NCBI RefSeq assembly: GCF_017876515.1
Contig: NZ_JAGIOC010000001.1
Span: 3,534,001-3,598,000, forward strand
Direction: 5' to 3'
Origin: Brachybacterium fresconis
GTDB taxonomy: Bacteria; Actinomycetota; Actinomycetes; Actinomycetales; Dermabacteraceae
DNA: 64,000 nt
Below the pieces are notes generated by a model, which was not told the DNA's origin, did no database searches, and saw only the letters and a list, made by a program, of their open reading frames with translations. Of the stretch, positions 480 through 19,042 are shown piece by piece; the stretch's first letter is position 1, and each line of letters opens with the position of its first letter. The position numbers were made by a program, and so were the translations under genes.

Positions 480-3107
480 ATGGAGTCGACGAGCGCATCG
501 ATCACTTTCTTCGAGCTGCAGGAGATCCTACGGGAACGGTCTCCTGACGATGTGCAGGCCTCGCGCGGAGAGCGGGGGACGGCTGAGCGGGACCCTGCGT
601 GGACGATGATCCTCGACTTGTGTGATGAGCTCGCCGAAGCGGAGGACGGCAGTTCACGACTCCTCGAGTACCGATGGGCGTTCGAGTCCCTCGAGGTCAC
701 GAACTTCCGCGGCGCGAAGCGCAAAAGCATGCTGGAGCTTGATCCGACCTATGCGCTGACAATCCTCCACGGGCTCAACGGAGCGGGGAAGACCACGATG
801 ATCGAGGCGCTGAGGGTCGCCATTCACGGAGCTCTGGACTCTTCGCACATCGGGCGCGACGGCCCCGGTATGCGAACGAAGGGGAAGCTCTGGATTGCTG
901 AGGAGCAACGGCCGGATCCGAGCGCACCGGCCAGAATCATCCTTGCGCTCAACGCGGTGGACGCCCCAGGGACCTCGCTGCAGATCACTGCAGGATTCGG
1001 TGACGATCATCAGGTGCACCGTACCGCGAATCTTCGACGAGCAGGAGAGGAGCCCCAGACCATCTCCGAAACTTCGGCTGAGTGGAGACTGTGGGATATC
1101 AGCGCACGTGCGTTTCCGCCCAGCTACAGCTATGCGTCGCTGAGCGACGAACTCCGCGATCCGCAGGACATTCACAGCTGGTTCTACAGTAGTCTCGGGC
1201 TAGGTTTGGCCCCCGCAGCACTTGAGCAGGCGCTGAAGTCACGCCAGCGCATCGCAAAGGAAGCTGACGGTATCCTGAGAGGTGCACTTCGAAGTGCGAG
1301 TGATGCCATCCAAGAAATCGACCATGAGGCACGAGAGGCTGGCATAAACATTACTGAAATCGCCTGGGACCAGCTTAGTTCCGCAACAGACGTCGAGAAA
1401 TGGTGCATCGACAACAACGTCGGTACCGGCGAAATTGTTGGTGAAAGCCTCCCCGACGATGTCGCCGAGGTGCTCGCTGCCGCCGCTCGGGATCTAAGGG
1501 CCGCTTTCGCGGGCTGGCGGGAAGCGGTGGTTGAAGGCATGGACAACCACTGTTTGGAAGCGCTTCTGAAACTTCGCAATGCGCTGGGGGAGCGGCATGA
1601 CCACACCGCCCTGGATACGTGCCCGGTGTGCGGGAGCGCTCGCAGCGACTGGTGGGAATCCTTTCAACGCCGGGCAGATACCTGGGCCGTCAATGAACGT
1701 GCGTGGCGGAACCTCGAGGTGGCCGTTGACCGACAAGGCCAACAGCTCGTCGATTTGTATCAGGCAGTGATCGAGCAGGCCCCTGAGGATCCGGTCTTGA
1801 GCGCACAGGCACAGCTGTTGCGCCAGTTACTCCCGAATCATGAGCAGAGACAACGCAGCACCTACCTGCAGAGCTCCGAGTCGAAGAACCGTCTCGAGCG
1901 ACTGGCTCAAGTGGCTGAGGAGCCGAAGACGCGGGCCCTCGTTGATAGCGCAGTGCGCACGGCAGGACGGAGGGGCCGCTGGAGGAATGCACGGCGCATT
2001 GCGCTCGCCGAATATCTCGACCTCGACGTCGAGACCAAGCGATCCGCCGAAGAGCTGCCGACGGTGAGACGTGCCGTAGCTCTGTGGAACCCGATCCTGC
2101 GCGACTTGCGGGATGAACGCACCGACATACTGCAGAGCCGCGTCGGAGGAATCATCAACGATCTGCTCGCCGAGCAGAACATTGAACTCGACAGCTTCAG
2201 CCTCCCGAAGACGGAGAAGAACTTCGAGATGCTCCTCGCTCGAAATGCGACCGATCCCGATACCGAATCAGCCGGGCATAAGGAGCAGCTGAAGCTCGCT
2301 CACCTCAGCGCGGGCCAAAGGAACATCCTCCTGCTCTCCCCTATGGTGGCTGCACCCGAGGAGGGACCTTTCGCGTTCCGGGTGTTCGACGACCCTGTCC
2401 ACGCCCTGGACGAGGTCCGGGTCGACCGACTGGCTCACAACCTCGTCACCCGAATGCCCTCCATGCAAGTGCTGGTTGCAACGCACGATGGGCGTCTCGC
2501 CGAGCACCTGACGATCCCGGCAGGAGGAGTCGTGAACACGTACGACGTCAACCTGCTGGACGGCCACGTCACGGCGTCGCCGGTGGAACGGGCATGGACG
2601 CAGCTCCTCCGGATGGCCGCGGAGACGAGGGGAGATCTGCAAGTAGCAGCACGGGAGGCAAGGGGCCAGGCCGATACTGAAGCACCCCCTGTTCAGCACT
2701 GTGCCGTCGAGGTAAGGACCCTGCTGAGGATGGCGCTCGATGCTTGCCTGGAGTATGCGCTCCGGCGCCGTGCATGGCGTGCCCAGCAGAGCTATGCACG
2801 AGAAGCTGATCCACCGGAGAGATCGGTGACCGAGTACATTGCCGCGATCGACGGCGCTCGGACTCTGAGGGCCCGAAGAGATCTTCTGCTCAGTTCCGAT
2901 CTTCCAGAGGAAATCGACCGCAGTGTCGAACGATCGCGTGAGGCGTTGGACCAGGTGGACGACTGTCTGAAGGTGTGGAACGAGGCAGCCCATGACGTCC
3001 GCAATGGTGAGGTCGAAGACTCTCAAGAGGTCGACGTCGCAACGCTGAACGGAGAGATCGACAAGTGCAAGATGGCCTGTAGGCACCTCAGTGGGATCTG
3101 GAGGTGA
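480..3107 (+). CDS. Rad50/SMC-like AAA ATPase with CxxC hook
   Basis: An 875-aa P-loop ATPase of the RecF/SMC/Rad50 class. Walker A is GLNGAGKTT (about residues 98-106), after the typical VTNFRGAKR strand. An ABC-type signature LSAGQRN lies near 609 and Walker B (FRVFDDPVHALD) near 636-645. The middle is helical with CPVCGS at about 381-386, which resembles one half of a zinc hook as in Rad50 or RloC. After the ATPase head there is an unassigned 200-residue C-terminal region. An in-frame stop at 474-476 limits the start to 480; the GGAAGGAG at 453-460 is rather far for this start. The stop overlaps the next gene by four bases. Such ATPases next to helicases are common in defence islands; the exact system is not recognised. 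Confidence 0.8.
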   Translation: MESTSASITFFELQEILRERSPDDVQASRGERGTAERDPAWTMILDLCDELAEAEDGSSRLLEYRWAFESLEVTNFRGAKRKSMLELDPTYALTILHGLNGAGKTTMIEALRVAIHGALDSSHIGRDGPGMRTKGKLWIAEEQRPDPSAPARIILALNAVDAPGTSLQITAGFGDDHQVHRTANLRRAGEEPQTISETSAEWRLWDISARAFPPSYSYASLSDELRDPQDIHSWFYSSLGLGLAPAALEQALKSRQRIAKEADGILRGALRSASDAIQEIDHEAREAGINITEIAWDQLSSATDVEKWCIDNNVGTGEIVGESLPDDVAEVLAAAARDLRAAFAGWREAVVEGMDNHCLEALLKLRNALGERHDHTALDTCPVCGSARSDWWESFQRRADTWAVNERAWRNLEVAVDRQGQQLVDLYQAVIEQAPEDPVLSAQAQLLRQLLPNHEQRQRSTYLQSSESKNRLERLAQVAEEPKTRALVDSAVRTAGRRGRWRNARRIALAEYLDLDVETKRSAEELPTVRRAVALWNPILRDLRDERTDILQSRVGGIINDLLAEQNIELDSFSLPKTEKNFEMLLARNATDPDTESAGHKEQLKLAHLSAGQRNILLLSPMVAAPEEGPFAFRVFDDPVHALDEVRVDRLAHNLVTRMPSMQVLVATHDGRLAEHLTIPAGGVVNTYDVNLLDGHVTASPVERAWTQLLRMAAETRGDLQVAAREARGQADTEAPPVQHCAVEVRTLLRMALDACLEYALRRRAWRAQQSYAREADPPERSVTEYIAAIDGARTLRARRDLLLSSDLPEEIDRSVERSREALDQVDDCLKVWNEAAHDVRNGEVEDSQEVDVATLNGEIDKCKMACRHLSGIWR

Positions 3108-3440: not shown

Positions 3441-5162
3441 TCATGCTCCCAGTACTCGCCGGAACCTCTCACGCAGCAGCGGGTCGACGACGTAGACGTA
3501 CGTCCCCCGCATGCCCCGGGTGAGCAGCACGCGATAGATGTTGGTGATGTACTGCAGCAGATCGTCGTCGGTCGTGTCGCGACCGCGCATGCGGTTGTTC
3601 TGCTTGCCCTTCTTGTCGAAGTAGTTCGCCTTGTCCGCCACGAGGCGTCCGGTCTCGGGGTCGATCCGGAGGTCTCCGCCGATGAGGACGCCGGCGTAGT
3701 TGAGGTCGTAGCCCTGCACGGTGTGGATGGACCCGACCTCTTCGAGCGCGGTCTTCGACGCGATCCAGTCCACGTCGGAGACGTTCCAGTCGAGGCTCAC
3801 GCCGTCGAGCTCGATGTCGTGCTTCCCGCTCTTCTTCCGGCTGCGCCACTCCCAGGCGTACCCGGCGACGAGCCGTGCCAGCCCGTACTCGGCGTCGCGC
3901 TCCCGGATTCGCTGATGCATGGCACCGAGGTCGTCGAACAGCTCGACTTCGTAGTCCTGGAGATCCGGAGCGGTGGCAGGCGGCTCGTTCGAGATCATCG
4001 AACGTGCGAACTCGAGGTACTCCTTCCCGCCCTTGACGCGCATCTGGGTCTCCAACGGATACCAGCGCTGGGCCTCTTTCGCCTCGGCGATGACCTGATC
4101 GAACACCTCGGGCTCGATGTCCGCCGGCCGCACACTCTGCTCCGTGTCGAGCAGGAGGATCGTGTGGCGGGACCGGGCGCGGATCCAGTCGAGCTGGTTC
4201 AGTGAGTGGTCGTCGGTGCCGAACAAACGCTGGGTGATCTTGGCGTAGCGCGCGGTCAGCGTCCCGTGCGACTGCGAGGCGCGCTGCGTGAGACGGTGCG
4301 CCTCGTCCACGACGAGCACATCGAAATCCTCCTCGGCGTCGGCCACGTCGTAGGGGGTCAGTACCTGGGCGTCACGAAGCGCGGGCACCTTGCGGAACAC
4401 CGTCGAGATCGACCGTCGCAGCGATTTCTGCGGGACGACGAGACCGATCCGCAGGTCGTCGAAGAGCTCACGGTTCCCCTCGACGAAGAAGTCGGAGAAC
4501 ATCGAGTCGCCCTCGACCTCGTCCGTCGGATCGAACTCGGCGATGTCCCGCATCAGCTTCATCAGGTAGATGCCCACGATCGTCTTGCCGGTCCCCGGGT
4601 CCCCCTGGATGACAGCGAGCGATCGATCCTCGAGGGGGAGGTCCTCGACCAGACCTTCCAAGATGTCCAGCACTGCGATGCCCTGCTCGGTGTTCAGCGC
4701 CTTGTACGGGGAGAGCTTGAAGAGGTCGGAGTTCTCGATCTGTGGGATCGTGCGCTCGAAGTAGCCGCGGGCGCGGAGCTCGCCGAAGATCTCCTTGAAG
4801 GAGTCGTTGTACTCGCTGCGCTGGTAATAGTCCTGGTTGGTGATGCCCTCGTTCCGATTGAGGAGATCGAACTTCCCGTCGCCGTCGAGCAGCCGGATCA
4901 GCAGGGACTCGAGATCCAGGCAGGCGGAGCCGTTGAAGCGATCATCGATGACGATCCGTACCTCGCGGAGATGCTGCTTCTGCTGCGACTTCAGGTGCTG
5001 GCGCATGCGGCGGTCCGCGCTGCCGGTCTCGCCCACGTAGATGTCATGCCCGTCCTCGATCAGGTACACGACCGGCCAGTTCGAGAAGCGAGGGAGACGG
5101 CTCCTCGTCTCCTCGGCCGACTCCGGGGTGAAGCGGAGCTCCTCGATCTCAAAGCCGGTCAT
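3441..5162 (-). CDS. GIY-YIG nuclease fused to Schlafen group 3-type helicase (DUF2075)
   Basis: A 573-aa two-domain protein. Residues about 30-105 form a GIY-YIG nuclease domain: VVYLIEDG (31-38), IYVGET (41-46), an Arg near 52 and a candidate catalytic Glu in DLESLLI (about 83-89). The rest matches the P-loop domain once called DUF2075, now Schlafen group 3 DNA/RNA helicase: Walker A GDPGTGKT (187-194), Walker B VLVVDEAH (282-289), and a C-terminal NIYRVLLTRGMRGTYVYV block like helicase motif VI. Its start overlaps the end of the mazG-like gene by 14 bp, so the two were translated together. With that gene broken by two insertions, the promoter this gene once used is probably cut off. A role in phage or nucleic-acid defence is inference. 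Confidence 0.85.
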   Translation of the reverse strand: MTGFEIEELRFTPESAEETRSRLPRFSNWPVVYLIEDGHDIYVGETGSADRRMRQHLKSQQKQHLREVRIVIDDRFNGSACLDLESLLIRLLDGDGKFDLLNRNEGITNQDYYQRSEYNDSFKEIFGELRARGYFERTIPQIENSDLFKLSPYKALNTEQGIAVLDILEGLVEDLPLEDRSLAVIQGDPGTGKTIVGIYLMKLMRDIAEFDPTDEVEGDSMFSDFFVEGNRELFDDLRIGLVVPQKSLRRSISTVFRKVPALRDAQVLTPYDVADAEEDFDVLVVDEAHRLTQRASQSHGTLTARYAKITQRLFGTDDHSLNQLDWIRARSRHTILLLDTEQSVRPADIEPEVFDQVIAEAKEAQRWYPLETQMRVKGGKEYLEFARSMISNEPPATAPDLQDYEVELFDDLGAMHQRIRERDAEYGLARLVAGYAWEWRSRKKSGKHDIELDGVSLDWNVSDVDWIASKTALEEVGSIHTVQGYDLNYAGVLIGGDLRIDPETGRLVADKANYFDKKGKQNNRMRGRDTTDDDLLQYITNIYRVLLTRGMRGTYVYVVDPLLRERFRRVLGA

Positions 5163-5414: not shown

Positions 5415-6977
5415 ATGGTACGGAAGATTAGAGCGAAGCTCGTGCTGCAGCTGCGGGCGGAGGGCTTGTCCGGGCGGGCGATCGCGGCGTCGCAGGGCAT
5501 GTCGCGCAAGAGCATCACGGCAGTACTGGAAGCTGCAGACGCGGCCGAGATCAGCTGGGACGATGTCGCCGACTTCCCTGACGGGGAGGTGTATGCCTGG
5601 TTGTTCCCGGGCCGGGGTGAGCATGAGAGCGTGTTCGCCCAGCCGGACTGGGAACGCGCCCACCGCGAGATGGCCCGGGTGGGGGTGACGCTGAAGCTGC
5701 TGCACGGTGAGTACGTCGATGCCTGCGCTGCTGCGGGAGATCCGGCGATGGGCTATGACCGGTTCTGCAAGACCTACCAGCGTCATGTCCTGGTCACCGG
5801 GGCCGCCTCCCGGGTCGGGCACAAGGCTGCCGCGAGCGTGGAGGTCGACTGGTCCGGCCCCACGATGACGCTGAGCGACCCGGTCACCGGGAAGGAGACC
5901 AGGGTCTACCTGTTCGTGGGGTGCCTGCCGTTTAGCCGCTACGCGTTCGCCTGGCCGGCGCTGGATATGCGTCAGGACACCTGGCAGCGCGCGCATGTGG
6001 CGATGTTCGAGGCCTTCGGCGGGTCGACGCCCCGGGTCGTGCCGGACAACCTCAAGACCGGGGTGATCAAGCATCCCCGCGAGGGCGAGGTCGTCCTCAA
6101 CGACGCCTACCGGGAGATGGCCGCGCACTACTCCGCGGCAGTCCTTCCCGGCCGGATCAAGAAGCCCAAGGACAAGGCCAGCGTGGAGAACACGGTCGCG
6201 CACGTGGCGACCTGGATCATCGCGGGACTGCGGGATCGACGATTCACCTCGCTGCCGGAGTTGACAGCAGCGGTCGCCGAGCGGATGGACGAGTACAACG
6301 CCGAGCCGTTCCAGAAGCGGCCCGGGTCTCGGGCCAGCGTCTTCACCGCGGAGGAGAAGCCGTTGCTGACCGTGCTGCCGGCGGTGGGCTATGAGATCTC
6401 GCGGTGGGTCTATGCCCGCCGGGTCGGACGCAACGCGCACGTGGTCTGGGAACGGAACTACTACTCGGTGCCGTTCGCTCATATCGGGGAGCGGGTGGAT
6501 CTGCGGATCACCGACCGGGCGTTGGAGGTCTATCGCGGCACCGAGCGGCTGACCAGCCACCTGCTGCTGCCGGAGACTGCGGCCAATGAGTACCGCACCA
6601 ACGAGGCTGACCTTCCCGGTGGGGAGCGTTACCAGCCCTGGGACGCTGCACGAGTGAGGGCGTGGGCCGAGCGGATCGGCCCCGCAGCCGTGACCGTGAT
6701 CGACCGGATCTTCGAGTCCGTGCCCATCGATGAGCAGGGCCTGGACGCCGCGCTGGCGGTGCTGCGCCTATCGCGCCGCTACTCCAGTGAACGGGTAGAA
6801 GCGGCCTGCCAGCTGGCGCTGGCCGGGAGGGTGAGGTCGCCGCGTTATGCGCACCTGCACCCCATTTTGGCGACCGGCCAGGACCGGATGGCCGCGTTGC
6901 GGCCACCACGAGAAGAGAACGCTGAGCAGGGCGGTTACGTCCGTGGCGGCGACTACTACGCCGGAGGTGTGAAGTGA
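5415..6977 (+). CDS. istA: IS21 family transposase IstA
   Basis: A 520-aa DDE transposase. The N-terminus has an HTH for end binding (RAEGLSGRAIAASQGMSRKS, about 16-35). The integrase core has the three acidic residues in recognisable contexts: VEVDWSG, VVPDNLKTG and KASVENTVAH. A C-terminal Mu-type region follows. The length is typical for IstA. The start at ATG 5415 has GGAAGGAG about 9 bp upstream. The stop overlaps the istB start (GTGA), the usual translational coupling in this family. It would act on the element ends together with IstB. Confidence 0.95.
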   Translation: MVRKIRAKLVLQLRAEGLSGRAIAASQGMSRKSITAVLEAADAAEISWDDVADFPDGEVYAWLFPGRGEHESVFAQPDWERAHREMARVGVTLKLLHGEYVDACAAAGDPAMGYDRFCKTYQRHVLVTGAASRVGHKAAASVEVDWSGPTMTLSDPVTGKETRVYLFVGCLPFSRYAFAWPALDMRQDTWQRAHVAMFEAFGGSTPRVVPDNLKTGVIKHPREGEVVLNDAYREMAAHYSAAVLPGRIKKPKDKASVENTVAHVATWIIAGLRDRRFTSLPELTAAVAERMDEYNAEPFQKRPGSRASVFTAEEKPLLTVLPAVGYEISRWVYARRVGRNAHVVWERNYYSVPFAHIGERVDLRITDRALEVYRGTERLTSHLLLPETAANEYRTNEADLPGGERYQPWDAARVRAWAERIGPAAVTVIDRIFESVPIDEQGLDAALAVLRLSRRYSSERVEAACQLALAGRVRSPRYAHLHPILATGQDRMAALRPPREENAEQGGYVRGGDYYAGGVK

Positions 6978-7720
6978 GCGTCATCGATATCGAGACCAAG
7001 CGCAAGCTGCGCGAGATGGGCGCGGCACCGCTGCTGGAAGCGTTCGAGACCCAGGATGAGAACCTCGTGCTGGGGATGGGGTTCGAAGACCGTCTCCAGC
7101 TCGCCGTCGACGAGGCCCACTCGATGTTCACCCACGCGAAGGTCGAAGGACTGATCCGCCGGGCCAGACTGCGTTACCCCGGTGCTGACCTCCGCCGGCT
7201 CGACCTGATCGAGCAGCGCGGCCTGGACCGCAACGTGATCACCCAGCTCGCGACGTGCTCATTCATCGCCCGCCAGCAGAACGTCGTCTTCCAGGGCTTC
7301 ACCGGCTCGGGGAAGTCGTATCTGGGATGCGCATTGGCCAAACAGGCTTGCCAGCACCGAATCCGTGCCCACTACATCCGGATGCCCGACCTCGCCGAGG
7401 CCTGGGCCCTGGCCCGCGACAAGCCCCAGGGGAAGAACAAGTTCCTGCGGAAATACGCAGCGTTCAGCCTGCTGGTGATCGACGAGTGGCTCCTGGACCA
7501 CCCTGACGCGGACATGCGCTACATGCTGCTGGAGCTCCTCGAACACCGCTACGACAACGCCTCGACCGTGTTCTGCACCCAGTACGCGAAGAAGGACTGG
7601 CACCAACGCCTCGGCTCCGGAGTCCACGCCGACGCGATCATGGACCGGATCGTCCACAACACCATCTGGGTCGATACCGGCAGCCACAACATGCGCGAGC
7701 ACGTCGCCACGCTCAAGTAA
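6974..7720 (+). CDS. istB: IS21 family helper ATPase IstB
   Basis: A 248-aa AAA+ ATPase related to DnaC. Walker A is FTGSGKS and Walker B is LLVIDEWLL. IstB forms oligomers on target DNA and delivers it to IstA. The gene starts at GTG 6974, overlapping the istA stop by four bases, with GGAGGTG just upstream. Length and motifs are those of an intact member. Confidence 0.95.
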   Translation: MSVIDIETKRKLREMGAAPLLEAFETQDENLVLGMGFEDRLQLAVDEAHSMFTHAKVEGLIRRARLRYPGADLRRLDLIEQRGLDRNVITQLATCSFIARQQNVVFQGFTGSGKSYLGCALAKQACQHRIRAHYIRMPDLAEAWALARDKPQGKNKFLRKYAAFSLLVIDEWLLDHPDADMRYMLLELLEHRYDNASTVFCTQYAKKDWHQRLGSGVHADAIMDRIVHNTIWVDTGSHNMREHVATLK

Positions 7721-7728
7721 CCAACCCC

Positions 7729-7832
7729 GGTGGAGGCCGGCGGCCCCGACAGCCGCGACCGCTGGCCCCCACCGGCACTACCCCTGGCCCCCAGAGGCAA
7801 TATCCGGTGGCCTCCACAGCTTCAAATATTCA
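7729..7832. repeat. IS21-family right end with terminal and internal repeats
   Basis: The last bases, read inward on the minus strand, are TGAATATTTGAAG, matching the left end over the first eight positions. Two GGGGGCCA-type blocks lie 30-80 bp inside, again as at the left end. The element ends with CA at 7831-7832, directly before the second TCCAGGT copy. Confidence 0.75.
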
Positions 7833-7839
7833 TCCAGGT
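7833..7839. repeat. Target-site duplication, right copy (TCCAGGT)
   Basis: Second copy of the 7-bp duplication that flanks the IS21-family element; it sits directly after the terminal CA. Confidence 0.9.
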
Positions 7840-7951
7840 CGAGTCGGTCCGCGAGGAGCAGCGCGTAGGTGAGGACGTCGGCCAGCTCGTCGGCCACCTC
7901 ATCCCGGTCGCTGGCGGCGTCCCATTGGAAGCACTCGAGCAGTTCGCCGGC
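7833..7951 (-). pseudogene. mazG-like pyrophosphohydrolase, middle fragment
   Basis: This piece encodes AGELLECFQW, then DEVADELADVLTYALLLADR, the E-x-x-E and D-E-x-x-D metal-binding core of MazG-like NTP pyrophosphohydrolases. On its 5' side (7951) it is cut by the tyrosine-recombinase transposon and on its 3' side (7833) by the IS21-family element. Joined to 12729-12833 and 5149-5245 it gives a continuous 107-codon frame including the stop. Confidence 0.88.
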
Positions 7952-7972
7952 AAGTGAGCAGAGTTGCATTGG
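7951..7972 (+). repeat. Left-end inverted repeat of the transposon
   Basis: Reads CAAGTGAGCAGAGTTGCA followed by TTGG and matches the right-end copy at 12701-12720 on the other strand apart from short gaps. Each copy also has an internal GCAA...TTGC dyad, as expected of a tyrosine recombinase core site. Confidence 0.6.
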
Positions 7973-8181
7973 ATGAGTCAATGGTGTGGATGTTGACGCG
8001 GCCCCACCGCGCGCCGCAAGGCCGGTTCGACGTGACTGAGTGCCTCCGTTGCCGCGTGCCTCGCGGCGGACTCAGCTCAACAATTCCCTGATCAAGAGGC
8101 AGATCGGTGCTTGCTGCATGCTGCGGACACCGTCCCGGGCGTAGTGCCCAATCGTGGATGCCGCGTTGCACTGGCAGACTC

Positions 8182-8208
8182 CATGATACATTTATGGCAT
8201 GTATGATG
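8182..8208. promoter_or_regulatory. Palindromic operator candidate upstream of the recombinase operon
   Basis: CATGATACAT, 7 bp, then ATGTATGATG: a 10-bp inverted repeat with one mismatch, 20-46 bp before the recombinase start and AT-rich compared with its surroundings. Its position suits autoregulation by the XRE protein of the same operon. Binding is inference. Confidence 0.5.
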
Positions 8209-8227
8209 CAGTAGACGCAATGCCGAG

Positions 8228-9325
8228 GTGCGGGTGGTGACCCGCGAAGTCCGATCCCTGGCTCCGGTGTTACAGCTGGACCCGGCTCGTTCGACGTTCG
8301 AGGAGATGCTGCGCCGCTACGCCGTCTCGATGCGCTCGCGTGGCCTGTCAGAAGCCACGATCCGGACGCATCAGTTCGGCGTGAAGCGGTTCTTCCATTT
8401 CGCTGAGACCTATCCGTGGGAGTGGCGGCCGCAGGACGTTGAAGACTTCACCTCGTCGCTGCTGTCTCGTCCGGAACCGTTGGCGCACTCCACGATCCGC
8501 GGCTACCACCAGATCGTGAAGGGCTTCTGCGGGTACATCTCGCATCCGTCCTACGACTGGGTCGACGTCTGTCTGGAACGGTTCGGGGCCGCGCCAGCCC
8601 AGATCTGTCATCCGTGGAACACGTTCGCGCACCTGGCTGAGTTCGAGGCACGGCCCACTCGACGGCCGTTCGGGTATGACGAGCTCGAGGCATTCTTCGC
8701 GCAGGCCGATGAGCGCGCCCACCACCTGCTCGCGGGCCGCAAGAAGGGTGCGTTGCCCGCGCTGCGGGACGCGCAGTTTTTCAAGACAGTCTACGCGTTC
8801 GGGCTCCGACGTCGCGAGGCGGTGATGCTCGATCTGAACGACCTCCGCCCCAATCCCTACGTTCCCGAGTGGGGCACGTATGCGAAGGTGCAGGTTCGAT
8901 ACGGCAAGGCGATGAAGGGGTCACCGCCGCGCCGCCGCACCGTGCTGGCGTGCCCGGAGTTCGCGTGGGCATCAGAAGGACTGCGCTACTGGGTTGAGGA
9001 AGTGCGACCGCGGCTCGCGACTGCGACGGAAGCTCTGTGGGTCAGTGAACGACGCACCCGCATGACAACTCGCACGGTGGACCAGCGGTTCGCGCAGATC
9101 CGCGACGCGGCGGGCCTGGATTCTGCGCTGACATTGCACAGTCTCCGCCACTCCTACGTGACCCACCTGGTCGAGTTTGGCTACGCCGCCCAGTTCGTGC
9201 AGGAGCAGGTCGGACACAATCACTCCTCGACGACCGCGATCTACACGTCGGTCGGTGACGACTTCAAGAACCGCATCTTCCAAGAAGCGCTGCGACGCGT
9301 GCTCGGAGAAGGAGAAACCGCATGA
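8228..9325 (+). CDS. Tyrosine recombinase (TnpA-like) of the transposon
   Basis: A 365-aa tyrosine recombinase. The N-terminal core-binding domain covers about residues 20-110 (the SAM-like YAVSMRSRGLSEATIRTHQ start). The catalytic domain shows the Arg in YAFGLRRREA (about 194), a Lys in KVQVRYGKAMK, H304 and R307 in LHSLRHSY, H330 in VGHNHSST, and Y339 in AIYTSV as the nucleophile. All catalytic positions are present, so it should be active. The track start is GTG 8228; GTG 8237 is an alternative and has GAGGTG 6 bp before it. The gene overlaps the XRE gene by four bases. It is probably the enzyme that moves the element. Confidence 0.93.
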   Translation: MRVVTREVRSLAPVLQLDPARSTFEEMLRRYAVSMRSRGLSEATIRTHQFGVKRFFHFAETYPWEWRPQDVEDFTSSLLSRPEPLAHSTIRGYHQIVKGFCGYISHPSYDWVDVCLERFGAAPAQICHPWNTFAHLAEFEARPTRRPFGYDELEAFFAQADERAHHLLAGRKKGALPALRDAQFFKTVYAFGLRRREAVMLDLNDLRPNPYVPEWGTYAKVQVRYGKAMKGSPPRRRTVLACPEFAWASEGLRYWVEEVRPRLATATEALWVSERRTRMTTRTVDQRFAQIRDAAGLDSALTLHSLRHSYVTHLVEFGYAAQFVQEQVGHNHSSTTAIYTSVGDDFKNRIFQEALRRVLGEGETA

Positions 9326-9648
9326 CCCGTCAATTCGATTGGCATCTTCGCCGCAAGCTCGCCGAGAACGGCATATACAAGACCACCGAGCTGGTGCCGC
9401 TGCTCGCCGATCAGGGCGTGAAACTCTCACGCGAGCAGGTCTACCGCCTGGTGACATCCAACCCGCAACGGCTGAACATCGAGGTCCTCGACGCGCTCTG
9501 CGTGATCCTCGACTGCACACCGAACGATCTGATCAGCTTCACCGTCGCGGCACGCGCGCAACCAAAAGCCGCCGGTGGCGGCACGGTCACCGACATCGGC
9601 ACACTCAAGACTGTCCCGGCGCGGATCACCCGGCCCGACAAGTCGTGA
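9322..9648 (+). CDS. XRE-family HTH regulator of the transposon
   Basis: A 108-aa protein with a Cro/C1-type helix-turn-helix over roughly residues 10-72 (KTTELVPLLADQGVKLSREQ, VYRLVTSNPQ, then LDALCVILDCTPNDLI), the layout of short XRE proteins. It overlaps the recombinase gene by four bases and the zinc-ribbon gene by four (GTGA). It likely represses the operon or assists the recombinase in end synapsis; which of these cannot be told from sequence. Confidence 0.88.
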   Translation: MTRQFDWHLRRKLAENGIYKTTELVPLLADQGVKLSREQVYRLVTSNPQRLNIEVLDALCVILDCTPNDLISFTVAARAQPKAAGGGTVTDIGTLKTVPARITRPDKS

Positions 9649-11603
9649 CCCCGCGATCATCTACCGCACTTCTCGACAACACCGCCGCGCTGCTCTCCCA
9701 TGGTGACCCGTGGACGGCGGTCGGCGAGGCGGGGGTGCGGGCGCTGCTCGAGCAGGTTGCCCCCACGCCGCAGGGGCAGGCACATCTTCGACGTTTCCTT
9801 GCCGAGGCGGACGCGACCTGGATCACTGACGCCGATCCGCACCTCCCTCGTCAGGCGCAACGATTGCTGCGGATGCTCCGAGCCAGCGGGTTCCCGGTCG
9901 CCCTGCCAGTATGCAGCGGATGCGGCCGAGAACAACTGCTCACGCAAACGCTCGAGGACGGACTCCGGGTCTGCAATGCGTGCCGGAACGTTCGATACAC
10001 CCGTCGCTGCGACGGCTGCGACAAGACCAGAGTGATCTCGCACCGCATCGAGGAGAAGAGCCTATGCGAGACCTGCTACCGGCGACGGCCGGAGGCAAAG
10101 AAGACTTGCATCCGATGTGGGCATGACCGGCTCGTCCAGAACCGAACAGCGGACGGCCCGATTTGCCCCCAGTGCGCGCCCGGCAAGATCGAGCCCTGCG
10201 TCCACTGCGGCCGTGAGCGGCGAGTCCAGGTCAGGTTCCTCGGCGGCGCGACTTGCGAACCCTGCTTCAACATCATCCGCGGCACTCGCCGCCCCTGCCC
10301 GCGATGCGGCACGGTCGGCCTGGTCGCGTCGGTCGCCGACGACGGTACTCTGGCGTGCTCGGCCTGCACAGGGGTGCGATCGCGGTTCATCTGCGCCGCG
10401 TGTGGCGTCGAAGACATCCGCAACGGGAAACGCTGCTACCCGTGCCTTGCACGCATCGCCATCGACGACCTGTTCGCCACCGGAACGCCCGCCCGCCGTC
10501 AGGCTCTCGAACCGCTCCGGCAACGCCTCCTCCACCACCCCGAACCCAAGAGCATGGCACGCTGGCCCGGCCGCAGCGCATCCGCCGCGATCCTGCGCGA
10601 GATCCTTACCGAGGACATCGAGCTCACCCATGAAGCATTGGACCAGCACCCCACGCTTCAGGCGGTGAACCTGCTCCGTCATGCGCTCGTCGACGTGGGC
10701 GCACTGGAACCCCGGGACACCGCATCGGTGCAGTTCACGGCCTGGATCGACACGTTCCTCCAGGGCCGCCCCGAACACATCACGCGCACCCTCGGGCCCT
10801 TTTGCCGGTGGCACGTCCCTGCTCGCAATCAGATACTCGTCCAACGCAATGGAATCACCGACGGCACGTTCGTTCGCGCCCGCCGCTTATGCCGGATCGC
10901 CGCTGACTTTCTCGCCGACCTTGACGCAGGCGGGATCGAACTGAAGACCGCCCCGCAAGACGCCGTGGAGTCCTACCTCGACCGGCACCCGCGCAACTTC
11001 GAACCGCTCGCTGCCTTCTTGCGCTGGGCGTCGCAGAGAGGAATCGCCGAACGGATCCACCCGATCCCGTCTCCATATGCGACCCCCTACACCGCGTACC
11101 CGATCGACACCTACAGAGCCTGGATGCACCGATTCGCGACGGACGAAACAATCCGGCTCAGAACCCGCATCTGCGGACTACTCGCAGGCATCTCCGGCAG
11201 GCCAAGCACGACCATCGCAGCCCTAAGCACCACGAGCATCATCGATGACACCGACGGGATGCAACTCCAGCTCGGGGCGACACCCTTCCAGCTGCCGCCC
11301 CCGTTGCCAGCGCTGATCCGACGGCAACTCGCCGCCCCACGGCGATGGGACATGGAATCAACGTGGCTCTTCCCGTCGAAACTGCGAGCCGGCGAACACG
11401 TGCACGCCAGCCGATTCACCACAGACCTGCAGAACCTCAACTGCAGCCTCGTCGAACTCCGAGGAGCCGCACTGCTAAACCTCGCCGCCACCATGCCCGT
11501 CGCACTGCTCTGCGACCTCACCGGAGCGTCGCCAAACGTCGCCGCAAGATGGCAGACCGTCGCCGCATCCGCCTATGCGCAATACCCCGCGATCCGGCTC
11601 TGA
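9645..11603 (+). CDS. Six-zinc-ribbon protein with degenerate tyrosine-recombinase-like C-terminus
   Basis: The start is taken as the GTG at 9645 overlapping the XRE stop, which gives 652 aa; the longer upstream frame would be antisense to sense of the two preceding genes and is rejected. Residues about 90-266 contain twelve CxxC motifs (CSGC, CNAC, CDGC, CETC, CIRC, CPQC, CVHC, CEPC, CPRC, CSAC, CAAC, CYPC), that is six consecutive zinc ribbons. The C-terminal 300 residues resemble a core-binding plus catalytic recombinase fold; VELRGAALLNLA and CDLTGASPNVAARW align with the HxLR and (V/L)GH boxes of the first recombinase but lack the His residues, and a Tyr remains near the end. It is probably a DNA-binding accessory factor of transposition. 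Confidence 0.75.
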   Translation: MTPRSSTALLDNTAALLSHGDPWTAVGEAGVRALLEQVAPTPQGQAHLRRFLAEADATWITDADPHLPRQAQRLLRMLRASGFPVALPVCSGCGREQLLTQTLEDGLRVCNACRNVRYTRRCDGCDKTRVISHRIEEKSLCETCYRRRPEAKKTCIRCGHDRLVQNRTADGPICPQCAPGKIEPCVHCGRERRVQVRFLGGATCEPCFNIIRGTRRPCPRCGTVGLVASVADDGTLACSACTGVRSRFICAACGVEDIRNGKRCYPCLARIAIDDLFATGTPARRQALEPLRQRLLHHPEPKSMARWPGRSASAAILREILTEDIELTHEALDQHPTLQAVNLLRHALVDVGALEPRDTASVQFTAWIDTFLQGRPEHITRTLGPFCRWHVPARNQILVQRNGITDGTFVRARRLCRIAADFLADLDAGGIELKTAPQDAVESYLDRHPRNFEPLAAFLRWASQRGIAERIHPIPSPYATPYTAYPIDTYRAWMHRFATDETIRLRTRICGLLAGISGRPSTTIAALSTTSIIDDTDGMQLQLGATPFQLPPPLPALIRRQLAAPRRWDMESTWLFPSKLRAGEHVHASRFTTDLQNLNCSLVELRGAALLNLAATMPVALLCDLTGASPNVAARWQTVAASAYAQYPAIRL

Positions 11604-11808
11604 GCCGAGCTTGACCACGGGCCCGACGGATCCGTGATCGACGGCTTCGCATGCTCTGGCATGCACCTCGTGTGGTCGCCGACGTGGGCTGGTGGATTAG
11701 TCCCGTTGGCCAGGTAGATCGAGGGCGCCACGTGGCTGCCGCAACCTGAATGGTGTAACGTGCGTCACTCACGCATCAGCGAGAGCAATGAGAGGACGTG
11801 TTTCACGT

Positions 11809-12195
11809 ATGCGTCGCAAAGTCCTTACGGCCGCGGCAACTCTGGCAGTTTCGGCGGGAACCGCATTCGGCACTGCTGGGGTTGCTTACGCCGATAATCC
11901 CAGTGTCTCAGAGACAACCGCTACTTGCATCACTAGCGGAAGTAGCGGTGTCGAGGGCACCCCTTGGACGGGAAAGAATCCCGAAGACTGTTCGGGGGAG
12001 TATCGGCTCTATGACATTACGCGAGGCCGGCCGACACTGATCGCTCAGATTGACAATGCCGACTCGATCGGAATTAAGGAAGCTGTAGCTGGAGATTATG
12101 CGAGCGCACAGGACTGGTGTGCTGATAACTCGCTTTCCTGTAGCATCCTGACCGGTGCCGGGTTCTTCGTCTTGGGCATTCTTGTTAACAGGTAA
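11809..12195 (+). CDS. Small secreted protein, transposon cargo
   Basis: A Sec signal peptide is clear (MRRKVLTAAATLAVSAG, ending AGVAYA-D). The mature part is about 100 aa with four cysteines and ends in a hydrophobic stretch (SILTGAGFFVLGILVN). ATG 11809 is preferred because the signal peptide then starts with M-R-R-K; ATG 11788 is an alternative. The gene looks less GC-rich than its surroundings, which fits recent transfer. It is followed at once by a small membrane protein gene. A secreted toxin/bacteriocin with its immunity protein is one possibility, but no family is recognised. Confidence 0.6.
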   Translation: MRRKVLTAAATLAVSAGTAFGTAGVAYADNPSVSETTATCITSGSSGVEGTPWTGKNPEDCSGEYRLYDITRGRPTLIAQIDNADSIGIKEAVAGDYASAQDWCADNSLSCSILTGAGFFVLGILVNR

Positions 12196-12211
12196 GTACA
12201 GGAGGGTGCCC

Positions 12212-12412
12212 GTGTCGCGTTTTACGAGGTTCTGTCTACGATTTGTCGGCGGCTACGTTGGAAGTATTTTAGTACTCAAAATGCTGACAGTGGATGTCGG
12301 TCTAGAGGAGTTTCTGGCGGTCGGCTGCACTCTCCTGCTTGGGGAAGTGCTATTGCGGACTGCTCGCAAGGTCCGCTTCCGCTCCGAACGGAACGGTGCC
12401 ACTCAACCCTAA
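12212..12412 (+). CDS. Small two-helix membrane protein, transposon cargo
   Basis: A 66-aa protein starting at GTG 12212, preceded by a strong AGGAGGG at 12200-12206. It has two hydrophobic segments (FVGGYVGSILVLKML and FLAVGCTLLLGEVLL) and a basic tail. The gene begins 16 bp after the secreted-protein gene, so they are cotranscribed. Immunity or export partner of the secreted protein is conceivable but unproven. Confidence 0.55.
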   Translation: MSRFTRFCLRFVGGYVGSILVLKMLTVDVGLEEFLAVGCTLLLGEVLLRTARKVRFRSERNGATQP

Positions 12413-12728
12413 TGTCGCATTTCGTTAGTGGCGGGCGGTTCTTGGGTCGGGAGATCGGATATAGCTCCTTCCCTTGTGTTTCACGATGACGACGACGTGG
12501 AATTTCGGCGCTGGCTATTGTCCTCGACGGATGAAGTCTGCTGATCACGGGGAGCGGGCACAGAACCTACTGTTGGGATGCGAAGGTATGGCCAACATCG
12601 AGATCGCTCATCGACGCCGGGAACCTGTGCCCAGGCGGTCGGCCCGCGGCCTCAACGTGCGGGCGGTCACTCCACAACTGCGAAGTCATCCGAGTATTGC
12701 CCACTGCAATTGAGCACTTGCACCAGAC
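12413..12728. other. Right end of the transposon, no gene seen
   Basis: About 315 bp between the last cargo gene and the junction. No convincing gene: the short open frames have no ribosome binding site or family resemblance. It contains the right-end inverted repeat near its right edge. Confidence 0.5.
12701..12720 (-). repeat. Right-end inverted repeat of the transposon
   Basis: On the minus strand this reads CAAGTGCTCAATTGCAGTGG, matching the left end (CAAGTG..CA..TTGCA.TGG) with two small gaps. It stops 8 bp short of the junction defined by the mazG-like frame. Confidence 0.6.
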
Positions 12729-12833
12729 CTCGATCGCGACGGACTTGGCGAGGTTCTCCGGACTGTGGAACTGCTCCCAGTCGCGTTCGGCCATGAACGA
12801 GCGAAGAGTCGGAAGGAGTGGGGCATCGGTCAC
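12729..12833 (-). pseudogene. mazG-like pyrophosphohydrolase, N-terminal fragment
   Basis: The piece starts at GTG 12833 and encodes LRSFMAERDWEQFHSPENLA and KSVAIE, the typical start of short MazG-like proteins (R-D-W-x-Q-F-H-x-P-x-N-L-A). At 12729 the frame runs into the right end of the tyrosine-recombinase transposon. Its natural continuation, AGELLE, is found 4.8 kb away at 7951. The intact gene would have coded for 106 aa and headed an operon with the GIY-YIG/helicase gene. Confidence 0.88.
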
Positions 12834-18151: not shown

Positions 18152-19042
18152 ATGCCGAGCAAGAAACTCTGGCCTTGGTGGGAGCAGCCGACCGGGACCA
18201 CGGATTATCGAGTGCGAGAACTGCTGCGAGCGATTCTCGACCTCCATGGCTACTACGGCGACAAGGACGTCTGGCTGTGGCGAGGTCAGGCGAACGCTGA
18301 CCACGATCTGACCGCAGGGGTTCACACACGGATCGAGTTCTCGAACCGAGCCGTCGATGACGGCTCGGTCGTCTCGGCGACCGAGAGCCTGCTCGACGAC
18401 CTTCGCAGGGCGAAGTTGGATACTCACGAAGGGGCGGCGCTTCCCGATCTCGCGTTGCTCGCGCAGGCGCAGCACCACGGTGCGGCGACGCCCCTGCTCG
18501 ACGTCTCAATGGATCCGATGGTGGCGCTCTACATGGCAGTCGTCAGCCCGTCCTCGCGAGACGCGGAGAAGGATGGAGTTCTCTTCGCCATCCGACGTCC
18601 CACGATGACGGACGACGTCAAGGTGCTTCCGTTCGACACCCGCTCCTTCCGCAAGATCTATGGTGACCTGCCGCGAAGCAAGCCGATCCTGTACTCGGCA
18701 CCTGACGTGAGCGATCGGTTGCGCATCCAGCGTGGGCACTTCCTACTATCCACGGTGAGTACGACGGATGCCCGTGTTCGAGTGAATCTGACGGCTGAGT
18801 CGCAGGGCGCGTCGGAGACGTGGCTGGCGAACAGGCTCGCGCGACGGGGCAGACCTGGCCGAGTCGGAGCGCCGAAGTCGGATATCGCCACCTTCCGGAT
18901 CGACAAGAAGTTCAAGAGGATGCTGCAGGACTGGATCGAGGAGCGTACGGGCCTCACCGAGGAGTACGTGTACCCGACGATCTGGCACCAGCCCCACCAA
19001 GAGGTCTTCGCCAAGAGCCACGGGCGCCGTTCGAAGGTCTGA
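18152..19042 (+). CDS. FRG domain-containing protein
   Basis: A 296-aa protein with an FRG domain: WLWRGQA at about 46-52 and AQAQHHGAATPLLDVSMDPM near 106-125, followed by VALYMAV. The role of FRG domains is unclear; they occur in bacteriophage-related and defence-associated genes. The start ATG 18152 has a G-rich ribosome binding site. The gene stands alone between the fucosidase operon and the osmoprotectant transporter, and a short remnant of an SDR gene lies just after its end, so it looks like an inserted accessory gene. Confidence 0.8.
   Translation: MPSKKLWPWWEQPTGTTDYRVRELLRAILDLHGYYGDKDVWLWRGQANADHDLTAGVHTRIEFSNRAVDDGSVVSATESLLDDLRRAKLDTHEGAALPDLALLAQAQHHGAATPLLDVSMDPMVALYMAVVSPSSRDAEKDGVLFAIRRPTMTDDVKVLPFDTRSFRKIYGDLPRSKPILYSAPDVSDRLRIQRGHFLLSTVSTTDARVRVNLTAESQGASETWLANRLARRGRPGRVGAPKSDIATFRIDKKFKRMLQDWIEERTGLTEEYVYPTIWHQPHQEVFAKSHGRRSKV

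Follow-up and report, generated by a model that had tools for sequence, protein, structure and literature searches.

A mobile int-xre-znr element of Brachybacterium fresconis and its actinobacterial family, with a site-dependent left hexamer and a fixed right hexamer

Integron cassettes are moved by a single recombinase through a one-strand, one-point exchange, carry a recombination site of approximately 60 bp on the 3' side of the unit, and form tandem units. In Tn554-type transposons both recombinases are reported with the catalytic motif (PMC3414803), while the circle of the elements known as SEs takes up the hexamer beside the left end, which is placed at the right on insertion and is the footprint of the previous site (PMC10214605). 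The same footprint rule is stated in that article for Tn554-related elements, and the SEs of its survey came only from Gammaproteobacteria (PMC10214605). The articles compared for the published transposon systems were PMC3414803, PMC10214605, PMC5385486, PMC8138268, and PMC7843796. Here we analyzed a stretch of 64,000 nucleotides of Brachybacterium fresconis (the window; G000:C1:3534001-3598000 in our numbering, host genome of 4.63 Mb in 2 contigs), in which a mazG-like gene is interrupted by an element encoding a tyrosine recombinase (int), an XRE protein (xre), and a zinc-ribbon protein (znr, product ZnR). The element is genuine mobile DNA and belongs to a large actinobacterial family that has int-xre-znr as its core and differing cargo after znr, before the right end; the inserted copies have a site-dependent left hexamer and a fixed right hexamer.

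The exact borders and the insertion without target duplication that a preliminary description of the window had proposed were both upheld, by the blastn ends, the joined flanks, the empty-site alignment, and the table of attachment sites (att table). Joining 7951 to 12729 restores the mazG-like frame (...SVAIE^AGELLECFQW...), and as 7951 and 12728 are both C, the placements 7951-12727 and 7952-12728 are equivalent. When the window segment 6500-14200 was used in blastn, Brachybacterium sp. FME24 (L023, 90% identical) matched only at 7951-11618 and 12641-12728, the cargo segment 11619-12640 being the part of the element that it does not share. The right border was confirmed by L024 and L025 (12728) and by L027 (12729), whereas L023 was the only blastn match to reach the left border, and the match of L026 is confined to 8275-11600, inside the genes; no alignable three-gene relative had a conserved region at odds with borders near 7951/12729. 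All 12 uninterrupted mazG-like genes (from 11 genomes of the same genus) aligned gap-free at the junction, with no residue gained or lost; the alignment of L062 shows a gap of 1 residue, but some ten residues beyond it. With the same ends carried by relatives at other sites, with target genes that exist uninterrupted, and with no supporting point found for a chance similarity or an assembly artefact, the probability of either is practically negligible. The mazG-like gene of the window is disrupted twice, by the element and, in its 3' part, by an IS21 copy. This IS21-type element (istA, istB) lies at 5415-7845, with its end cutting the gene short on the 3' side; the terminal peptide of the IS21 end, EYLKLWRPPDIASGGQG, was found again at four further genomic positions (L065-L068).

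The ends were compared across subfamilies, of which group A is that of the window (ZnR 47-90% identical) and group B is more distant (27-28%). The imperfect terminal inverted repeats noticed earlier (CAAGTG and TTGCA at the left, CACTTG and TGCAA at the right) are largely conserved in relatives. Group A ends read N6|CAAG..TTGCA at the left and ..TTGCACCAGA|C at the right; CAAG was present in 9/9 non-tandem left ends (all found with the CAAG motif), and the last ten bases TTGCACCAGA followed by C in 14/14 right ends, 5 of which could be positioned from an alignment or an empty site, the other 9 having been found with the motif. The left hexamers of group A were CGCCGG in the window (mazG), TGTAGA, AGTAGA, TGTACA, and CCCAGA in nrdH, and GAGGAA, AGGGCA, CCGCTA, and GTGGGA elsewhere. 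At the right, group A has the fixed hexamer ACCAGA, and other subfamilies have ACCAGT, ACCGGT, or CC[AG]GTC: the group B right end, CTACCAGTA, was located by exact motif at 11 different non-tandem right flanks (6 of them alignment-placed), and that of group C reads CCGCC[AG]GTC. The left-junction hexamer differed from the right-end hexamer of its subfamily in 24/24 non-tandem junctions (9 in group A, 9 in B, and 6 in C), by 1 base in L101, by 2 in L026, L114, and L132, and by at least 3 elsewhere; this count excludes group D (L130, L133, and L137, with less sharp borders), L124 (a copy of L123), the tandem junctions (L115, Leaf151, and G547), and L118, which starts inside the element. A classical integrase with a shared core was ruled out, as the two junctions have no direct repeat in common. 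Within the right ends of group A, RNAalifold predicted a weak 4-bp helix only (-1.25). Several right ends contain a subterminal dyad (GAGAACT..AGTTCTC, GAGCACT..AGTGCTC), and a 7-bp dyad with at most 1 mismatch occurred in 11/14 of them, versus a mean of 3.85 and a maximum of 9 in 200 letter shuffles.

The three genes overlap by 4 bp each (ATGA and GTGA), and their products were recognized by Pfam as Phage_integrase (Int, E 1e-20), HTH_26 (XRE protein, E 4e-14), and A2L_zn_ribbon (ZnR, E 5e-6). In Int, the catalytic residues are H304, R307, H330, and Y339, and H-R-H-Y was retained in 44/44 sequences; Arg I is not covered by 5 of these 44 and was left uncounted in ZnR, where the alignment is uncertain. 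ZnR has 12 CxxC motifs, i.e., six ribbons, the cysteines of which are invariant in 19 aligned proteins, while its C-terminal part lacks the complete catalytic set in 46/46 sequences. Judging from the predicted model and the alignments, this tail is a tyrosine-recombinase fold that is catalytically degenerate; hhalign of ZnR against Int and against two Tn554-like long recombinases gave nothing significant. The preliminary description was therefore right about the canonical tyrosine recombinase, the XRE protein, and the four-base overlaps, and its six-zinc-ribbon protein with a recombinase-like tail also stands, although it missed that the tail is degenerate. In six plasmid relatives of ZnR (L165-L170), the number of CxxC motifs ranged from 6 to 18, as if ribbons had been gained or lost.

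Table 1. Features of the element and of the interrupted gene, in window positions
Feature	Position	Strand	Description and evidence
Whole element	7951..12727 (equivalent to 7952-12728)	+	4,777 bp; blastn ends in L023, L024, L025, L027; empty-site alignment; att table
Left end	7951..7969	+	CAAGTG arm + TTGCA half-site (7964-7968)
int	8228..9325	+	tyrosine recombinase, 365 aa, complete H-R-H-Y; Pfam PF00589
xre	9322..9648	+	HTH_26 Cro/C1-type DNA-binding protein, 108 aa; Pfam PF13443
znr	9645..11603	+	GTG start; six zinc ribbons (residues 90-267) + degenerate tyrosine-recombinase domain predicted (residues about 377-652)
Cargo open reading frame, 135 aa	11788..12195	+	signal-peptide-like start (by eye); within the segment unshared with L023
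Cargo open reading frame, small hydrophobic protein (by eye)	12212..12412	+	GTG start after AGGAGG; scanned as 12209-12409
Right end, about 64 bp	12664..12727	+	CACTTGC arm, then hexamer ACCAGA (12722-12727) kept with the element
mazG-like gene, 5' part	12728..12833	-	alignment with L064
mazG-like gene, middle part	7832..7951	-	3' side cut by IS21 end, inner limit approximate; L056

The check named in the preliminary description, the recurrence of the three genes in the same order in other actinobacteria, was positive: the order was retained in 43/45 fetched loci, the two exceptions being L100, which begins inside znr at a contig end, and L105, without detected int or xre, and also in 6/6 plasmid loci examined from among the 221 records. 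Relatives of ZnR were present in 8/38 genomes of the window's genus, in 32/396 genomes sampled from the order (E <= 1e-30), in 86/366 genomes of the genus of G215 (E <= 1e-20), which includes Microbacterium Leaf151 and CH12i, and in 221/72,556 plasmid records, 147 of them from Streptomyces or Rhodococcus. The last two counts indicate a widespread group rather than a single oddity. On plasmids, znr was annotated as 'recombinase XerD', 'Fis family transcriptional regulator', 'XRE family transcriptional regulator', or hypothetical protein. With the whole element as megablast query, no plasmid matched, and a phage origin was ruled out by the absence of ZnR from all 50,697 phage records searched (0/50,697).

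Several single loci of the survey deserve a separate mention. The second contig of the host carries a relative of the same module (G000:C2:31990-33327; L002, L003; ZnR 27%) with transposase-like genes within or adjoining it, which looks decayed. The elements of L099 (G637) and L100 (G632), from two species, agree in their inner sequence (about 21 kb in L099) and in the right end but have different right flanks, perhaps owing to a recent transfer. On contigs C1 and C2 of G020, equal-score ZnR-type genes lie inverted near both ends of each contig, which could mean either linear replicons with terminal repeats or a repeat at which the assembly broke. L108-L112 are five loci with the same element (int matched only in the last part) and with long flanks 98-99.9% identical, perhaps as part of a larger island.

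The commonest identified target in the window's subfamily is nrdH, which was hit in L025, L026, L027, L101, and the G547 array and probably also in L024 (five codons visible, MKITV), i.e., at 5 or 6 of the 13 group A sites, while the remaining sites are mazG, intergenic, or unassigned. The joined flanks read MTVTVYTKPSC in L025, MTITVYTKPSC in L027, and VWEKPSC in L101. In the window mazG was used although the host genome has an uninterrupted nrdH. Group C sits in the 3' end of nrdH. A distant subfamily with a ZnR of about 657 aa (L119-L123, L125) was observed in the nrdH 3' end in several genomes, so that nrdH is a target at two positions for related elements.

Some of these sites hold tandem units. 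In Microbacterium Leaf151, the junction ACCAGA|CAAG connects an autonomous element of 10.7 kb to a 6.8-kb second unit behind it, which ends with GGTTGCACCAGA|C at the apparent start of nrdH; this unit encodes a P-type ATPase, a DUF305 protein, and an M23 peptidase, and searches for int, xre, and znr gave no hits in it. In G547, nrdH precedes two units that likewise gave no int, xre, or znr hits, the first of them without a clear left end, and G569 has a further right end with no recombinase genes within the 18 kb read; neither genome had a ZnR match at E <= 1e-20. The similarity of the recombinase-less units to the four autonomous elements examined is limited to 48-65 bp of the right end. A pattern search for the right end gave 7 hits in 6/366 genomes and 0 with the reversed control, and the pattern misses variants, e.g., L101, L099, and the first G547 unit. 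Altogether, two group A arrays were found (Leaf151 and G547), and in L115 of group B a right end abuts a left end.

While the structure of the family is directly visible, the mechanism had to be deduced from static copies, and we lean towards a transposon family with a single live recombinase, in which one strand would be exchanged at one point, formally as in integron cassettes. Since the right hexamer is constant while the left one varies, the circle would have to take its hexamer from the right end. The excised form would then be a circle with the right-left junction CACTTG-CACCAGA-CAAGTG, i.e., inverted arms around a 7-bp spacer. Int would cut one strand per site, at the spacer edge adjoining CAAG, and ZnR would occupy the other arm, where its inability to cut would leave the second strand unexchanged, the half-reaction being finished by replication or repair. 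Use of the same strand in excision and insertion would keep the hexamer with the element. XRE bound at TTGCA sites, at the end and before int, would link regulation to recombination: the 15-bp dyad TTGCAN5TGCAA is present at the left end and before int in 6/6 group B loci tested, where the XRE protein probably binds both sites. In group A, the dyad occurs at the left end of 3/9 elements (L098, L101, and L104) and is absent from the window, L023, L025-L027, L099, L123, L130, L133, and L137 (the L137 stretch being without its tip), and the case for XRE binding is weaker for the window, which has only half-sites. If the right end (about 60 bp) acted like a cassette-borne recombination site, this would explain the recombinase-less tandem units in nrdH. 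The most far-reaching version, in which the dead recombinase-fold partner sits permanently on one crossover arm so that the live recombinase exchanges one strand, the hexamer is inherited permanently, and the 60-bp right end is a mobile cassette site that builds integron-like nrdH arrays, is offered tentatively, as a possibility that we would not yet bet on.

Other explanations of the same junctions were considered. ZnR could stand outside the recombination complex, as a repressor or a target-choosing DNA-binding protein (as YopR and SroF may be), with a strand bias of another cause; this appears rather doubtful, as znr is co-encoded with int in 43/45 loci and 6/6 plasmid loci, and the likewise co-encoded dead proteins Tfp (SE) and GinC (GInt) belong to core genes that are reportedly needed for recombination. 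Tn916 is an element of the coupling-sequence type, and a conventional two-strand exchange of this kind, with a spacer heteroduplex and a right hexamer fixed by selection for functional ends, would agree with the general Phage_integrase family of Int and with attP-like arms around a 7-bp spacer. Without strand bias, however, approximately half of the left junctions should carry the element hexamer and none of the 24 non-tandem ones does; the degenerate recombinase-fold partner beside int in 43/45 loci would also be left unexplained, and we consider this exchange unlikely.

Very unlikely, in our opinion, is a Tn554/SE-type origin of the right hexamer as the footprint of the previous site's left flank, with all donors sharing one flank. 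The two plans do have much in common (no target duplication, inverted terminal motifs, a 6-bp spacer, a left-end operon, and specific targets; PMC10214605), yet donors like the copies seen would give CGCCGG, TGTAGA, TGTACA, AGTAGA, CCCAGA, etc. at the right, where ACCAGA was found in 14/14 (5 of them motif-independent). Moreover, similar right hexamers (ACCAGT, ACCGGT, CC[AG]GTC) recur in distant subfamilies, and there is one full-motif recombinase, not two.

Regarding the cargo, neither open reading frame of the window had a Pfam family above the cut-off or an NCBIfam match, and L023 has a similar cargo, in which a small open reading frame comes after one whose start resembles a signal peptide, neither of a known family. 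The cargo of L025 includes an MFS transporter and an HTH-ImmA/IrrE-type protein. Elsewhere in the window, three possible defence genes were noted on weak or partial matches: an AAA ATPase (480-3107), a GIY-YIG + Schlafen-type helicase (3441-5162), and a protein with PADLOC PDC-S15 similarity (18152-19042, E 1e-20).

Among the open-access matches listed, as judged by titles and the first part of abstracts, no int-xre-zinc-ribbon element and no nrdH transposons are described, and the nearest published class found was that of the actinobacterial Tn554-related transposons (Van Houdt et al. 2012, PMC3414803), the hosts of which are largely actinobacteria, as here. The family shares with Tn554 the lack of target duplication, the specific target, and a pair of neighbouring genes for recombinase-type proteins, one short (about 350 aa) and one long (over 600 aa). 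It differs in that the long protein here is without the catalytic set (46/46), whereas two long recombinases from two plasmids of the 2012 set retain the motif (by eye); in the right hexamer, which, as read from static copies, is fixed and not donor-derived; and in the middle gene, which is an HTH_26 XRE here and was compared with TnpC of the Tn554 set (TnpA, TnpB, TnpC) by description only. Identity with the Famint36/41 actinobacterial class of that study was rejected, because 0/4 of its plasmids match ZnR (E <= 0.001) and 3/3 control plasmids do. The earlier impression that the element recalls Tn554 with a different combination was therefore sound; the suggestion of a distinct, poorly described transposon class was upheld in part, the family being related in plan to Tn554 but different in make-up.

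SEs, which were compared by description only, are alike in the inverted motifs around a short spacer, in having the target hexamer at attL and the element hexamer at attR, and in a recombinase-fold protein without catalytic motif (Tfp), but have four core genes (intA-tfp-intB-srap) with two motif-bearing recombinases instead of three genes with one, and their spacer comes from the left flank at circularisation, here apparently from the right end. In SEs, recombination of attL with attR is described as producing no empty site. GInts (ginABCD; PMC5385486) also have an operon at one end, cargo, a motif-less recombinase-fold protein (GinC), and site-specific integration; they differ in two motif-bearing recombinases together with GinC and GinD and in flanking imperfect direct repeats, compared with one and no direct repeats here. 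RITs likewise have overlapping genes (by 4 bp in the present family) but three active recombinases, versus one with the motif here, and for the gamma-mobile-trio Int scored only 14.3 (GmtY) and 17.8 bits (GmtZ) against cut-offs of 340 and 600, with no hit for ZnR. The family may resemble integron cassettes in having a single recombinase and tandem units that share 48-65 bp at the right end; unlike in cassettes, the lead element itself carries the recombinase, the arrays stand in nrdH, and a recombinase-fold partner and an XRE protein are present, and no attI platform came to light, although no search aimed at one was made. The family also draws attention to a vehicle that has largely escaped notice, with genes for metal transport and regulators among its cargo, in Microbacterium, Brachybacterium, Rhodococcus, Streptomyces, and Paenarthrobacter. 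With one live recombinase, one dead conserved partner, and a spacer that is seemingly never replaced, it offers a minimal comparison for why SE, Tn554, and GInt need several recombinases, and, if the proposed one-strand exchange is true, the number of live recombinases would explain the origin of the 6-bp footprint.

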